Shown: piece after piece, positions 43,805 through 49,705 of the stretch
How the letters are laid out: every line of letters starts with the position of its first letter
Numbering within the stretch: the first letter of the stretch is position 1
Assembly (NCBI GenBank): GCA_963854735.1
Contig: OY978100.1
Coordinates: forward strand, 558,001 to 622,000
Source: Marvania coccoides
Taxonomy: Eukaryota; Chlorophyta; Trebouxiophyceae; Chlorellales; Chlorellaceae
Length of the DNA: 64,000 nt
Direction of reading: 5' to 3'
Position numbers and translations under genes: made by a program
The notes under the pieces: model-generated
The model's input: the letters and a program-made list of their open reading frames with translations, nothing else
The model's database searches: none
Told to the model about the DNA's origin: nothing

Positions 43805-46800
43805 TTATTTCTTCATGGCTGCGTACATGGCGTCGATCTCCGCCTGGTACTTCTTTTGCAGCTGCGGGCGCTTGAGCTTGAAGGTGGGGGTCAGCAGGTC
43901 GTTCTCCACCGCAAACAGCTCAGACTCGAGGTAGATGGCGCGCACCATCTCGAAGCCCTTGAGCTTGCCCTCCTTGGCGGTGGCGGTGAGCGACTCCAGC
44001 ACCTTGGCACGCACAGCAGGGTCCTTGCAGGTATCGGCGTCGGAAGCGCCAGAGGCAGCCAGCCCGCGAACAGTGCCCATGACGGGCACCACCACGGCCA
44101 CCAGCGAGCTCTCGAAGGAGTTGCCTGCCAAAAAAATATTTCATTGACGAAAAAATATCAATGTTTAGGAAAATATCAAGGAAAAAATTGTCAAGCAATG
44201 TTTTCTTCCTTTACTATCGGTATTTTTGCTACCTACCATACACCCAGATCTGCTCCACGTGGGCGTCCTTCGAATAGATGCCCTCGATCTTTTCAACCGC
44301 GATGTATTCGCCCTGGCTGAGCTTGAAGATGTTCTTCTTGCGGTCGATGATCCTCAGGGCGCCAGTGGGGGTCAGCTCGCCCACGTCGCCGGTGTGGAAC
44401 CAGCCGTCGGATTCCAGAACCTCGGCGGTCTTGTCCTGCAAACAAACTCAGCAGCGCAACGCAACGCAAATAAAAAAGTAAGGAGGGCCCCAGGACAGAT
44501 GGAAAAATGATGAAGAAAGAATAATCAATTGTTCTTCCCCGATTTCAAATAGAAAGACGTAATTTTGGATTGCATGGGTCCCTTCATTTATTTCTTCATC
44601 AAAACAAAATCGTTCCCAGCCTGGAGACAGGGGGGGGGGGGGATCTCTGAAAAAAAATCTTTTGATTGAACTCACGTCCGCCTTGTAGTAGCCGGTGAAC
44701 ACCGCGGGGCCCTTGACGCAGACCTCTCCGCGCGGAGGGTTGCCCATGGGGTCGTAGTTCATCTCGGGGACAGCCTCCAGGCGGAACGACAGCACCGGCT
44801 GCGGCGGCCCCACCGTGCCGGCGTGCTCAGCCTCGTCGGGGACGGCGATGAAGGAGGCGGCGCAGGTCTCGGTGAGGCCGTAGCCCTGCACTACGCGGCA
44901 GCACATGGTGACGCGCAGGAAGTCCTCCACGTGGCGGGACAGCGGGGCGCCGCCTAGGAGAAAGAAAGAAGAAGGAAAGAAGGAAAAATAGCATTAGAGA
45001 AGGGTGACAATAGATAGCGTCAAGATGAAGATGCTATAGCACTACACCCGACTCAAAGATACAGCAAAATACTTTTATACTGTAATTAATTTTATTATCT
45101 TCGTTCGTATCTACCGCTGCTACTCACCGGACACCAGCAGGCGCACGCGCCCTCCCAGCCGCGCCTTGATCTTGGAGAACACCAGCTTGTCGAAGAAGGG
45201 CGCCGCCTTGTCGTAGTGGATCCCGCTCTGCAGCGCGTGCAGCTTGCGGCTGAAGCCCCAGTTGAACAGCGTCTTGGCGATGAAGGAGCCGTGGGACACC
45301 TTATCCACGACGCCGGTGTAGATGCGGTCGAACACGCGGGGCACGCCGCAGAAGAGGGTGGGACGCAGGGCGCCAATATCGTCAACCAGTCCCTTGATGT
45401 CGCCGCGCCAGTAGCCGATGGAGCCGCCCAGGTGCAGCATGTACTCCTCGGTGGTGCTGCAAAGGGGGGAAAATGGAGGAACGAGGGAATATTAGCCCAG
45501 TGCAGCTGCGAGAGAAGAGCATTGAATGTTGTTTGTTTGTATTATGCCGCCCCCCCCCCCCCCCCCCCCCACACACACACACAAATCCCCTCCCCAGGTT
45601 TCAATATTGGATACAGAGGGAGAAGAAGGGATGAAAAAGAAGCTGCAAGTACGAAAAAGACAGAAAGAAAAAAGTACCGCCCAAAAATATGTGCCAGCGG
45701 GAGAAAGCTGAGCACAGAGTCGTGGGCCCCCATGGGCACAGCGTGGCAGATGCAAAAGTATGCCATAGAAATAATTGCCCCCAAAATGGCGGCGTGGCTC
45801 AGCTCAACGCCCTGCGAGAGCGGTGAATGGGGAGGGGGGAAATAATTCCGCTTCATGCGATTGTAGTATCAGGGAAAGAAAAACAACAGCGCTGGAGTGC
45901 ATCATCGGGCGGTGGATTCAAGGACGCAGAATCATGGGCAGTGGCGATGGAAAGTCTGTGAAAGGAATGTGGGCTCCCCCCCCAAAGGAAGGATGTCGAA
46001 CCAATCGACTAGCACGGAAAAACGTTTATATTATAGACCACCACGAAACGACTGCCAAAAGTAGAAAAAATGGCGTTTATAAACTCTGGGATTTATGTAT
46101 GGTCCCTCATTCCCGAAGAAAGGAAAGGGAGAAAAAGTTGAGGAGCAGCCTACCGCTGGAAAATGTGGGCCAGCGGAAGGTAACTCGGCACGCAGTCGGT
46201 GGCGTCCATCGGCTTATCCGGCGCACAGTGGGCCATCATGAAGCTCCATTGAGAGGAAATGGTCATCACAACAGCGTGGTGCGTCAGCGTGCTGCCCTGC
46301 ACCACCGCTTGACGAAAAAACATATTATTGATTTTCTTGGAAGAAGGAGGCAACGCAATCAAACTATTGTACTGCTGCTGAAATAATGCAGAAGACGGTG
46401 CATCGGGCGGCAGCTATGTACAGCGGCAATTCAAAACGGGGCCGTGGAGGCGGTGGCAGCATGGGGAGCGTTTCAATTTGTCAATGGCGATGAGAAGGAG
46501 AACGGAAGAAGAAATCCCAAACACGAAAATCACAATGTCAAAAACAGTGAAGATGTCATATATGTCGTCCAAGCCAGACAGCTCGCCAAAGACTCATGTA
46601 ATGTATGTATGTATGTATGTATGACGAACAGGAGGAAAAAACGGGGTGGAATTTCTAGAATACCCTGAATCAAAACTTTTCGATTGTTTCCCCCTTTCCC
46701 AAACCAACCATATTAAGTATATATATATATATATATATATACATATTAGCAGCCTACCGATCGAAGATGTGTGCCAGAGGCAGGAAGGACAGGAACACGT

Positions 46801-47992
46801 CGTTTTCATCCTGATCGGCGCCGACTGAGTGAACAAATGTCTTCAGGGACACAATGGTGTCCAGAACGCCCTTGTGGTTCAGCTCGACACCCTTCAGACA
46901 CAGTGGGGGGTAATTGGGCAGGGCGGAGGGACGGTTGGTTGGATTTGGGCAATGAAAAATTTAAGCCATGTGGGGGGTGGGTGACATTCAACATTATAAA
47001 ATGGCAAGCGGAAGAGCAAGGAAGGACAAGGGCAGTGAATTTTGCATTATAATGGAATGCAGATAACAGTCATGCATGCCTGGGCCGCCCGATTGCACCT
47101 CGGAAGAAAAAAAAACTAAAAGAAGCTGTGTTCAAAATACTCACCTTGGGGTCGCCGGTGGTTCCTGAGGTGTACATGATGGTGCAAAGGTCCGTGGGCG
47201 CGGGGGGCACGGGATCAGCGGGCTTGGAGCGGCCCATCTCCAGGAACTCATCAAAAGAGTGCACCGCTGCACCGGCAGCCTTGGCGGCCTCAGCGGCGGC
47301 GGCGTCGCCCTCGCCCCAGTACACCACCGTCTTCACGCCCGAGCAGCGCGGCAGCGCGCCCGCCAGGCTGTGGAACTTGGAGGTCTGGGTAAAAATGATG
47401 CTAGCTTCGGAGTGGTTGATGATGTACTCGATGGCGTTTTCGCCCAGGGAATCGTACAGTGGGATGCAGTAGACGCTCTGGCGGTTGCAGGCCTGCATGG
47501 CGAGCATCCACTCGGGGCAGTTGGCGCCGTAAATGCCGGCGCGGGCATGGGGGGCCACTCCGACCGCAGTCATGGCGCTGCCAATGGCCGCAGCGCGCTC
47601 AGCGGTCTCCTTATAGGTCAGCCACACGTAGTCGCCATCAGGGCCGCGGTGCCCCAAGCAGTTATTGCCGCCATACTTCTCCACGGAGGTGTTGAACATC
47701 TCGTAGAGCGTGGCGACGCCGGGCAGCTCGGGGGGGCCGTCCTTGGCGATCGTGGCCCTGTGTACGGCAAAGCAGATCGTGTGGAAGGTTAGAATTTGCG
47801 TTGATCAGCGCGTAAAGAGTAGGATTTGGCGTTATTTACGGTGCTGAAGAGTAATCTAGGATGGTCCAATCTGAAACCCGGGCGTTGGAGACCCTGTTCC
47901 CGAGGTGCTCGTTACCTGTACTCGGGCCCAGTGGCAGGCTTGCCATTGGCAGCGGGCTTGGGAGGTCCCACCTCAGTGATGAACGACTTCAT
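43805..47992 (-). CDS. LACS: long-chain acyl-CoA synthetase with three alternative gate exons
   Basis: Constitutive exons in transcript order: 47916-47992 (ATG at 47992), 47145-47757, then one of three cassettes (46758-46891, 46154-46296 or 45678-45811), then 45128-45456, 44676-44953, 44237-44435 and 43805-44124; 649 residues (652 with the middle cassette). Motifs: [13 protein letters not shown] (ATP P-loop, ending at the cassette boundary), PLAHIF-R (in each cassette), [59 protein letters not shown]. It activates free fatty acids to acyl-CoA with ATP. No peroxisomal signal (ends AAMKK), so ER, lipid droplet or plastid envelope is possible. Only one cassette per transcript keeps the frame, predicting three isoforms. 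Confidence 0.93.
44630..44642. repeat. G13 run in a LACS intron (C13 on sense strand)
   Basis: Homopolymer of about 13 G on the plus strand between the fifth and sixth constitutive coding blocks of the LACS gene. Confidence 0.8.
45550..45583. repeat. C21 run plus (AC)n in LACS intron
   Basis: About 21 C followed by alternating AC on the plus strand; on the LACS sense strand it is (GT)n then G21. It lies between cassette 3 and the next constitutive exon and could affect splice choice. Confidence 0.85.
45678..45811 (-). other. LACS cassette exon 3 (mutually exclusive)
   Basis: 134 bases, acceptor CTCTCGCAG|GGC, donor GGGCG|GTACTT, entry phase 0 and exit phase 2. It encodes [20 protein letters not shown] ... 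[12 protein letters not shown]. No stop. Closest to the standard plant/animal sequence after the P-loop. Confidence 0.8.
46154..46296 (-). other. LACS cassette exon 2 (mutually exclusive)
   Basis: 143 bases, acceptor GGTGGTGCAG|GGC, donor CAGCG|GTAGGC, phases 0 and 2. It encodes [20 protein letters not shown] ... [12 protein letters not shown], three residues longer than its sisters and the most divergent (GVEL replaced by GSTL). No stop. Confidence 0.8.
46597..46623. repeat. (ATGT)n microsatellite between LACS cassettes
   Basis: Six to seven ATGT units between cassette exons 2 and 1. Confidence 0.85.
46719..46746. repeat. (AT)n tract beside LACS cassette exon 1
   Basis: Alternating AT tract of about 22 bases immediately downstream (sense strand) of the cassette 1 donor site. 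Confidence 0.85.
46758..46891 (-). other. LACS cassette exon 1 (mutually exclusive)
   Basis: 134 bases, acceptor GTCTGAAG|GGT, donor GATCG|GTAGGC, phases 0 and 2. It encodes [20 protein letters not shown] ... [12 protein letters not shown]. Its acceptor (GAAG rather than CAG) is the weakest of the three. Confidence 0.8.
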
Positions 47993-48198: not shown

Positions 48199-49455
48199 CT
48201 ATTCTCCGTCCGCAACAGCCGCCTTCCTGGCCCGTTTCGGCCGCCCCTCCACAGCTGCCGCGCCCTCCTCTCCTTCGCCGACTGCTTTGGCCGCCGCCCC
48301 CGCCCTGCGCTCCCGCTTCAGCCCCTTCATTTTGTGCAGCGCAATGGTGCCCACGTCCTGCTTGGGCATGTAGATGCGTCCCACCTTGCCCTCCAGCATG
48401 TCTCCCGCCACGTTCTTCTGCTTTTTCGGCGCCACCTTGGGCTTGGTCAGCGCCTCCTTCTCCAGCTCAACCGGCGCCGCTTTTGACCTCCTAACCTCCA
48501 GATCCATGCTGGGCCCCATCTCTGACAGCTCCACACGCGGCACCCGCGTCCCAGACTTCTTCATCTTCACAGAGTACTGCCGAAAGAAGATCCGCTGCTG
48601 CTGCTGCTGGGGGCCGCCGCCGCCGTCGCCGCTCTCAGCTGCGCCAGGGGGCGCATACGTGACGAACACCACTCGATCCAGTCCCTTGAGGTTGATGGCA
48701 TCCACCTGCCGCCCGCGGAAGTAGTCCAGCATCAAGCTGCGCACCTGGCGCAGCCCTGGGTTGCTTGTGAAACCTTCCCCAACAAAAACAAACGCCGGCT
48801 TGTTACCCAGCTGCGCGCCGGTGCTGCCGGGGAATTTCGCGACGGGTTTGAAGCTGAGCACCCCAAACTCGATGGCATCGTACAGCCTGAAGTCGTAGAG
48901 CCGCCCCATGATGAGGTTGTTGGGACGTTTCTTCGAGTGAGAGCCCAGCGCAAAAAGGCTGCAGTTGGCGCGGCCAGCCAGGATCTCCAGCTGCACTTCG
49001 CCTCCGGACTCAAACGGCCGCAGGTTGGGGTTCTTACGGCTGTATTTTAGCGAGTCCACCTGCGTTTTTCAGTGTAAAAAAGGAGAACCCAAAAATATCA
49101 GAGGGCGGGGTGGCAAAGAGGGGGATTAAAATGTGTGCACGCATTGAAAACGCACCCCCTTGAGCTTGTTGATGTCTGTGAGCACATCCTTTATGAGCTG
49201 GCTGGTCTTGTTGGAGTAGAGTATGAGCGATCGGCGGGGGTCCTCAATCTGTGAGTGGGAAATTTAAATTAGTTAAAAGACAATAAATTGACTGCTCTGA
49301 GGCTCTGACGGTCAGATTCCTGCCCGCACGATGCTGACAGCCAAGCGTGAACCTACGATTTTGGGGGCCCTCCTCTCCAGAACTCGCTGGCCTTTCTTGG
49401 TCTTCGGCTTTTGAATTCTTGTGCTGGGTGCCTTGTTACCCCCTTTGCCGGACAT
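48199..49455 (-). CDS. RPF2: ribosome production factor 2 (Brix domain)
   Basis: Exons 49357-49455 (ATG at 49455), 49156-49248 and 48199-49059, phase 0 throughout; 350 residues. A basic N-terminus (APSTRIQKPKTKKGQRVLER) leads into the Brix domain: RRSLILYSNKTSQLIKDVL, RKNPNLRPFE, CSLFALGSHSKKRPNNLIMG, RLYDFRLYDAIEFGV and RVVFVTYAPP, followed by RQYSVKMKKSGTRVPRVELS and a basic tail. RPF2 works with RRS1 in the nucleolus to load the 5S RNP on pre-60S ribosomes. Tandem with LACS and divergent from the NIN-like gene. Confidence 0.95.
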
Positions 49456-49705
49456 TTTTATAATATGTTCAATAGAAGATAAAACGATTCGTTGAAATGG
49501 GAGGCTAAATTATGCAGGCGGCTTTATAATTTAATTTATTTTTTTTGCATTCAATATGCAAGCGCGAGTTTTTTAATTTGCTCTACTACTTTAAGCTTTT
49601 AAATATATTTTAATATATGTGAAATTTTTAATAATCGCCTTTATGCGCCGCAATGCGCAATGTGGTCGGCTTTCCAGCCTCCTCCAGCTGTCTGCAAATT
49701 TGAAA

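Follow-up and report, generated by a model that had tools for sequence, protein, structure and literature searches.

How can a single gene carry three copies of the same coding segment in a row and still yield one functional protein? The question is raised by a gene for a long-chain acyl-CoA synthetase (LACS) on the minus strand of a 64,000-nucleotide (nt) stretch of DNA from the unicellular green alga Marvania coccoides (GenBank assembly GCA_963854735.1, contig OY978100.1, positions 558,001 to 622,000), hereafter called the window. The assembly comprises 22.46 Mb in 15 contigs. The original prediction, made from the sequence alone, had described three homologous cassette exons in tandem, here designated A, B, and C, and had proposed that they are spliced in a mutually exclusive manner. 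This reading was supported by the frame logic, the shared phases, the single locus, and an enzyme domain that is intact with each cassette, and further by second cassettes in protein models of relatives and by competing intron pairings. We infer both cassette use and RNA pairing from the sequence, and consider it quite probable that the exon cluster works as a set of mutually exclusive exons. In the proposed mechanism, tandem duplication would have produced three such exons in one green-algal LACS gene, each supplying the piece of protein from the ATP-binding P-loop to the start of the next helix together with the aromatic fatty-acid gate residue, and exactly one of them would be joined between the exons at 47145-47757 and 45128-45456.

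Structure of the LACS gene and frame logic of the cassettes

The gene was rebuilt with seven coding positions, the third of which is filled by one of the three cassettes, and all of its introns have GT-AG borders. Cassettes A (46758..46891), B (46154..46296), and C (45678..45811) were found on the minus strand where they had been predicted, each with an AG acceptor and a GT donor; they were identified by the gene model and by comparisons of open reading frames (ORFs) and of cassettes, and cassette B also by a genome search. Their lengths of 134, 143, and 134 nt were confirmed, and each leaves a remainder of two when divided by three. As in a tandem exon cluster, they are homologous and adjacent, identical in phase and similar in length: each begins with GG in phase 0 directly after the P-loop motif TSGTTGDPK and ends in phase 2 with LPLAHIF-(D/Q/G)-CG.

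The prediction that only exactly one cassette keeps the reading frame held. Isoforms with a single cassette have 649 (A), 652 (B), and 649 (C) amino acids (aa), and all other combinations (none, AB, AC, BC, and ABC) shift the frame. The resulting premature stops fall at codon 255 without a cassette, at codon 279 for AB, AC, and ABC, and at codon 282 for BC, positions 734 to 1073 nt 5' of the last exon junction. mRNAs with such early stops are usually unstable through nonsense-mediated decay, and wrong cassette combinations would be removed by way of these stops in the proposed mechanism.

The remaining coding exons lie on the same strand. Exon 1 starts with ATG (47916..47992; gene model and homology to the protein P0002 of Nannochloris sp. 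'desiccata', 100% query coverage), and exon 2 (47145..47757; sequence and gene model) ends in phase 0 at the P-loop. In the gene model, the cassettes are followed by a constitutive exon (45128..45456) that starts in phase 2 and completes an Arg codon, by two further coding exons (44676..44953 and 44237..44435), and by the last coding exon with the stop codon (43805..44124).

Judged from its domain content and its close full-length LACS homologues, the gene product is an AMP-binding enzyme, a long-chain acyl-CoA synthetase, with an apparently intact domain whichever cassette is used; PF00501 scored 290.9, 285.4, and 293.8 bits with isoforms A, B, and C, respectively. Protein relatives were represented by the best 120 of 7978 matches. 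The best of those listed were proteins from Nannochloris, Micractinium, Chlorella, and Picochlorum, several of them named long-chain acyl-CoA synthetases, and the closest relative among the matches listed was Nannochloris, with 79% identity of P0002 over 100% of the query. The protein collection was clustered at 90% identity, and isoforms differing only in the 45-aa cassette would therefore be merged in it.

The window contains 1117 stop-to-stop ORFs that are 35 aa or longer, and these were compared with one another. The only same-strand pairs less than 3 kb apart at E ≤ 1e-3 were A-C (3e-10), B-C (9e-8), and A-B (4e-6). When the whole assembly was searched with cassette B, the sole candidates at E ≤ 10 were B, C, and A. 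There is therefore no sign that the cassettes exist as separate genes, a possibility that the original prediction had raised against itself and that was set aside as unsupported. The flanking exon had no second close match in the genome (next best, 41% identity). Two further LACS-like loci contained one gate motif (L089) and none (L088) in a motif scan and thus gave no sign of tandem cassettes. An assembly artefact, in which collapsed alleles or paralogues had been joined to form a single gene, might be suspected from a long G run in the intron after cassette C (about 45540-45575), but the cassettes differ at over half of their aligned residues, the flanking exon stands alone as described, and relatives show second cassettes in protein models from assemblies of their own; we give this explanation hardly any credence.

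Two other ways of keeping the cassettes apart were rejected. Steric exclusion by short introns was ruled out because the introns separating the cassettes, 461 and 342 nt, are too long for it, and a mixture of U2 and U12 splice sites was dismissed with all introns being GT-AG (U12 motifs were unscored). The first ten intron bases after cassette A (46748-46757) and cassette B (46144-46153) are identical. This sequence, GTAGGCTGCT, occurs nowhere else in the 64 kb and is absent after cassette C; it could be a relic of duplication or a common splicing signal.

Fatty-acid gate residue in the cassettes

The residue immediately before LPLAH is Phe in cassette A (DVFLSF), Tyr in cassette B (DCVPSY), and again Phe in cassette C (DSVLSF), and the cassettes carry the gate motif D-x4-(F/Y)-LPLAH in both variants. 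According to excerpts of PMC1543647 and PMC2868784, human ACSL6 and ACSL1 possess two mutually exclusive exons of 26 codons with the motif D-x4-(F,Y)-LPLAH-x2-E, in which the aromatic residue is the gating residue and the Phe exon lies 5' of the Tyr exon. In the same excerpts, the Phe form produced oleoyl-CoA about tenfold faster than the Tyr form (45 versus 5 nmol/mg/min), the main difference reported between the gate forms being one of activity (about tenfold on oleate, PMC1543647), and a mammalian isoform lacking the gate domain had no detectable activity.

The original prediction had drawn a parallel with these mammalian genes, and it proved closer than claimed, as the same Phe/Tyr residue before LPLAH is switched. 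The likeness extends to the enzyme family, the protein segment, the placement of the D-x4-(Phe/Tyr)-LPLAH gate on tandem alternative exons, and the exon order, with Phe ahead of Tyr (excerpts of PMC1543647 and PMC2868784). In contrast, the final E of the published motif (x2-E) is replaced by D, Q, and G in A, B, and C, respectively. The mammalian exons, as described in those excerpts, are two, of 26 codons each, and can be skipped to give an isoform without the gate, whereas the algal exons are three, of 134, 143, and 134 nt, and cannot be skipped in frame, a stop following at codon 255; the algal piece, moreover, begins right at the P-loop. Since the E is not kept, the lengths differ, and skipping in frame is impossible, we set the algal cluster apart from the mammalian exon pair. 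It probably works like the ACSL1/ACSL6 switch without being the same pair of exons, and its origin was probably independent.

Of the two origins that had been proposed, independent or ancient, the independent one was thus favored and the ancient one became less likely, the mammalian exons having 26 codons and being skippable in frame and the algal exons neither. An ancient origin in common with vertebrate ACSL1 and ACSL6 would explain the shared protein segment and Phe/Tyr gate and the exon order, Phe before Tyr in each case (PMC1543647, excerpt). It is at odds with the exon sizes (26 codons against 134 to 143 nt), with skipping in frame in mammals only, and with the prevalence of Tyr, which was found in 97 of the 121 gate motifs of the 120 protein relatives listed (24 had Phe, and one protein had no motif), in a collection whose 90% clustering would hide isoforms. 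Such common descent seems very unlikely to us.

In a structure model of P0002 built with 12 sequences, the cassette corresponds to residues 235-279, and the mean predicted local distance difference test score (pLDDT) was 76.5. The model contains a strand (234-239), a helix (240-256), a strand (266-269), and the start of a helix (276-287), and pLDDT within the cassette was moderate (66, 80, 74, 81, and 67 in blocks of ten). In this model, the cassette appears to begin where the P-loop ends and to reach the first turn of the helix that follows, forming strand, helix, and strand. The isoforms would presumably differ in activity or acyl preference.

Predicted docking and selector elements in the introns

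A docking-like element, GGTGCAATCGGGCGGC, was predicted 46 nt into the intron 5' of all cassettes (47084..47099, minus strand). Predicted pairing partners on the same strand are a selector-like element B, GCCGCCCGATGCACC (46397..46411), 100 nt upstream of cassette B, and a selector-like element C, CCGCCCGATGATGCAC (45897..45912), 85 nt upstream of cassette C. In a local pairing scan, the docking element was complementary to GCCGCCCGATGCACC with one bulged base at -33.1 to -35.8 kcal/mol and to CCGCCCGATGATGCAC at -27.0 kcal/mol. Both pairings use the same bases, 15 nt of the docking element being common to them, and so only one of the two can form. When the 1708-nt region was folded, the B pairing was part of the minimum free energy structure with a mean pair probability of 0.93, and the C pairing was then practically absent.

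In 0 of 2539 dinucleotide-shuffled sets did one and the same docking window pair with both introns at least as strongly as here (-27.0 kcal/mol), and a 9-base word of the docking intron complementary to words in both other introns was found in 11 of 10,000 sets. Among the 168 intron triples of the gene, only the docking intron with the two selector introns reached a 9-base match. In the ranking of 28 intron pairs, i2A-iAB came first (z -5.05, 0/600) and i2A-iBC fourth (z -2.84, 6/600). The words CCGCCCGATG and ATCGGGCGG occur twice and three times, respectively, in the 64 kb, and all copies are accounted for by the selectors and the docking element. Duplex energies of whole introns placed i2A-iAB below all 60 shuffles with many weak pairs mixed in, and local windows and masked tests were used instead.

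The odds appear about even that the cassette is chosen in splicing by pairing of the docking element with selector B or C. In the mechanism proposed, pairing with selector B would loop out cassette A and join B, pairing with selector C would loop out A and B, and an unpaired docking element would leave A to be used by default. Several observations speak against such a device. The candidate selector A, a weak CCGCCC upstream of cassette A (46921..46926, minus strand), pairs at -19.7 kcal/mol, no better than the shuffle means. The pairs i1-iC4 (z -3.97, 0/120) and i1-i2A (z -3.07, 0/120) also stand out with no obvious role. The shuffle tests moreover overstate significance, because the selectors are perhaps alike by descent and the introns contain GC-rich patches.

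Mutual exclusion could also be real but be achieved through frame and decay or through splice-site strength and protein factors, with the intron complementarity arising by chance or as a by-product of duplication. We regard this as a serious possibility, although somewhat short of an even chance. The stops of wrong combinations lie far enough upstream of the last junction (734-1073 nt) to fit it, the acceptor of cassette A (tctgaag) looks weak by eye (unscored), GC-rich patches in the AT-rich introns inflate pairing, and the two intron pairs of no known role are in keeping with it. Decay of wrong products may contribute to exclusion, except with exons of multiple-of-three length and in clusters of more than three (PMC6071210, excerpt); the algal cluster, with three exons whose lengths are not multiples of three, escapes both limits. 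Selection by docking and selector elements is favored over this explanation by the shared docking pairing, which no shuffled set matched, by the copies of CCGCCCGATG and ATCGGGCGG, which two selectors and a docking element explain, and by element positions and polarity that fit the layout of Dscam exon 6.

In the Dscam exon 6 cluster, as described in excerpts of PMC8042237 and PMC6071210, a docking element is situated after the upstream constitutive exon and ahead of the first variant, and selectors placed before the variants compete for one set of docking bases. Vertebrate genes contain similar pairings (PMC8042237, excerpt). The alga resembles Dscam in position and polarity, with a docking-like element in the intron before A and, before B and C, selector-like elements that would compete for the same bases. 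It differs in having three variants, a selector A at chance level, and a pairing known by prediction in one alga.

Mutually exclusive exons are already known in a green alga. Volvox cyn23 has two of them, both of 106 nt, which is not a multiple of three, with verification by reverse transcription-PCR reported (PMC4378016, excerpt). The likeness to Marvania lies in the green algal host and in alternative exons of equal, non-multiple-of-three length, and the difference in the number of exons, two, and in the gene; RNA pairing is not mentioned in the excerpt. The specific RNA-pairing mechanism proposed here is unproven. Among the open-licence papers listed, no algal LACS switch and no docking/selector system of the green lineage was found, an absence that is weak evidence. 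That a lineage of unicellular green algae independently evolved both a Phe/Tyr gate switch and a Dscam-type docking/selector system for three gate exons is conceivable at just under even odds; as part of this joint reading, the selector would be the first based on RNA pairing outside animals, as far as the open-licence papers listed show. If this reading is correct, a single-celled alga could select among three gate versions of a metabolic enzyme at the RNA level, evolution would have made the same gate residue switchable on two occasions, and the green lineage would possess a long-range docking/selector device for splicing. The cellular role of Phe and Tyr gates would then become testable in a small single-celled system.

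Two features of the introns stood apart from these elements. The first intron (47758-47915) is complementary beyond shuffles to the last cassette intron (45457-45677) and to the docking intron (46892-47144). At 45540-45575, in the intron after C, a long G run on the gene strand is preceded by a GT repeat; strong pairings of this poly-G tract with C-rich introns were discounted as low complexity, and the tract was masked in the ranking of intron pairs.

Divergence of the cassettes and second cassettes in relatives

The original prediction had proposed a search for the same exon triplet in related algae. Second cassettes were found in three protein models, P0001 of Nannochloris 'desiccata', P0022 of Chlorella variabilis, and P0009 (EukProt), but no third cassette was seen among the 120 relatives listed. 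Of the two Nannochloris LACS4 models, close homologues of the algal gene that share cassette 1, P0001 contains two cassettes in a row and P0002 a single one, with flanks identical at 601 of 601 residues. The second cassette of P0001 is of the Tyr type and consists of 45 codons and two bases, 137 nt if the borders match, again with a remainder of two; P0001 keeps its frame only through four extra bases. The Nannochloris pair thus differs from Marvania in showing two cassettes, spread over two protein models. In P0022, cassette 1 is followed by out-of-place residues and then by ...LQ-GVLISHRQVATTIGSKRAFLD, where a second cassette begins. The same first cassette (45/45) occurs in P0003, a clean single-cassette protein from a 2,568-base contig. 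In P0009, 17 residues from the start of one cassette are fused to a complete second one. These three models look as if annotation had bent splice sites to fit two cassettes, which would be expected if the cassettes there also leave a remainder of two.

Among 15 cassettes chosen by us for comparison, cassette A and Nannochloris cassette 1 were reciprocal best matches (31/45), as were cassette C and the second cassette of P0009 (26/45), which points to an origin of A-like and C-like cassettes before these species diverged. An indirect sign of alternative cassettes came from P0007 (C. ohadii) and P0035 (jgi), whose flanks were identical at 450 of 485 positions and their cassettes at 27 of 45, one with Tyr and the other with Phe. 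The difference between flank and cassette identity was 0.33 for this pair, against a 99th percentile of 0.23. Setting aside the isoforms of the window itself, no other pair with a flank identity over 85% differed as much, but larger values occurred where the flanks were more divergent (P0007-P0003, 0.38; P0008-P0003, 0.34).

Other comparisons count against the preferred reading. A relative might splice two cassettes together, P0001 being in frame through a piece longer by 4 nt. Since P0007 and P0035 were drawn from separate sources, their difference could be one between species. Cassette B was nearest to Nannochloris cassette 2 (23/46, score 104) with P0008 nearly tied (103), its variable part alone was closer to P0008 (58) than to Nannochloris cassette 2 (51), and Nannochloris cassette 2 was itself nearest to P0007 (118). 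With P0008 nearly tied and Nannochloris cassette 2 nearer to P0007, the orthology of B is weak. At conserved sites, B deviates with its GST start and Q for D, and C has G for D.

Within the gene, synonymously differing and identical codons at shared residues numbered 10 and 9 for A-B, 12 and 8 for A-C, and 8 and 13 for B-C, and LPLAHIF was retained across the cassettes despite synonymous changes. Nonsynonymous (dN) and synonymous (dS) divergence by NG86 was 0.65 and 1.27 for A-B, 0.56 and 2.00 for A-C, and 0.53 and 0.98 for B-C, with dN below dS throughout; the values are only rough since dS is near saturation. G or C occupied the third codon position (GC3) in 97 of 135 cassette codons and in 532 of 605 codons of the constitutive exons, a lower share in the cassettes (Fisher P = 1.3e-5); GC3 was lowest in C (0.659) and A (0.705). 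Codon usage has also been the subject of a paper on the alternative exons of Dscam (PMC2741454).

These data bear on the idea that A is the working exon and that B and C are duplicated exons in decay or used only as poison or noise exons. A is the cassette closest to one of a relative, B and C carry the deviations at conserved positions given above, and GC3 is low in C and A. Loss of frame or splice sites would be the expected fate of copies in decay, but B and C are open and phase-correct, with GT-AG sites and Pfam scores like that of A; LPLAHIF has survived their synonymous changes, and a gene of another species contains a close counterpart of C. We consider decay of B and C unlikely and retain mutually exclusive use of all three cassettes as the preferred reading.

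Four LACS fragments (P0208, P0213, P0235, and P0240) end exactly at ...LPLAHIFDR. Such ends fit read-through into an intron starting there (CG|GTAG), which suggests that the downstream intron position is common to other organisms. Among the LACS fragments (best 120 of 2231), no clear further isoform pair was seen by eye, no systematic pair test being made. A protein search with cassette B alone gave no match, with no candidate sharing three words. In viral contigs, six stretches matched a pattern and none encoded a relative; of 581 related genome contigs, the 80 that were kept had titles naming bacteria or archaea, included no algal DNA, and were left unused.

Neighboring gene and background scan

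Upstream of the LACS gene, a neighbor on the minus strand (48200-49460) resembles a ribosome-biogenesis gene that we take to be of the RPF2 type. In a background scan of 200 kb (20 pieces of 10 kb taken singly, 3415 ORFs), 25 same-strand local pairs were found, confined to loci L093, L103, L107, and L108. By our reading, L107 and L108 (G000:C1:270001-290000) resemble tandem, diverged ABC-transporter genes, and L093 resembles a large helicase with an internal duplication. At 2105-3281 of L103, short protein-like stretches recur on one strand (E 3.7e-6 and 1.9e-5).

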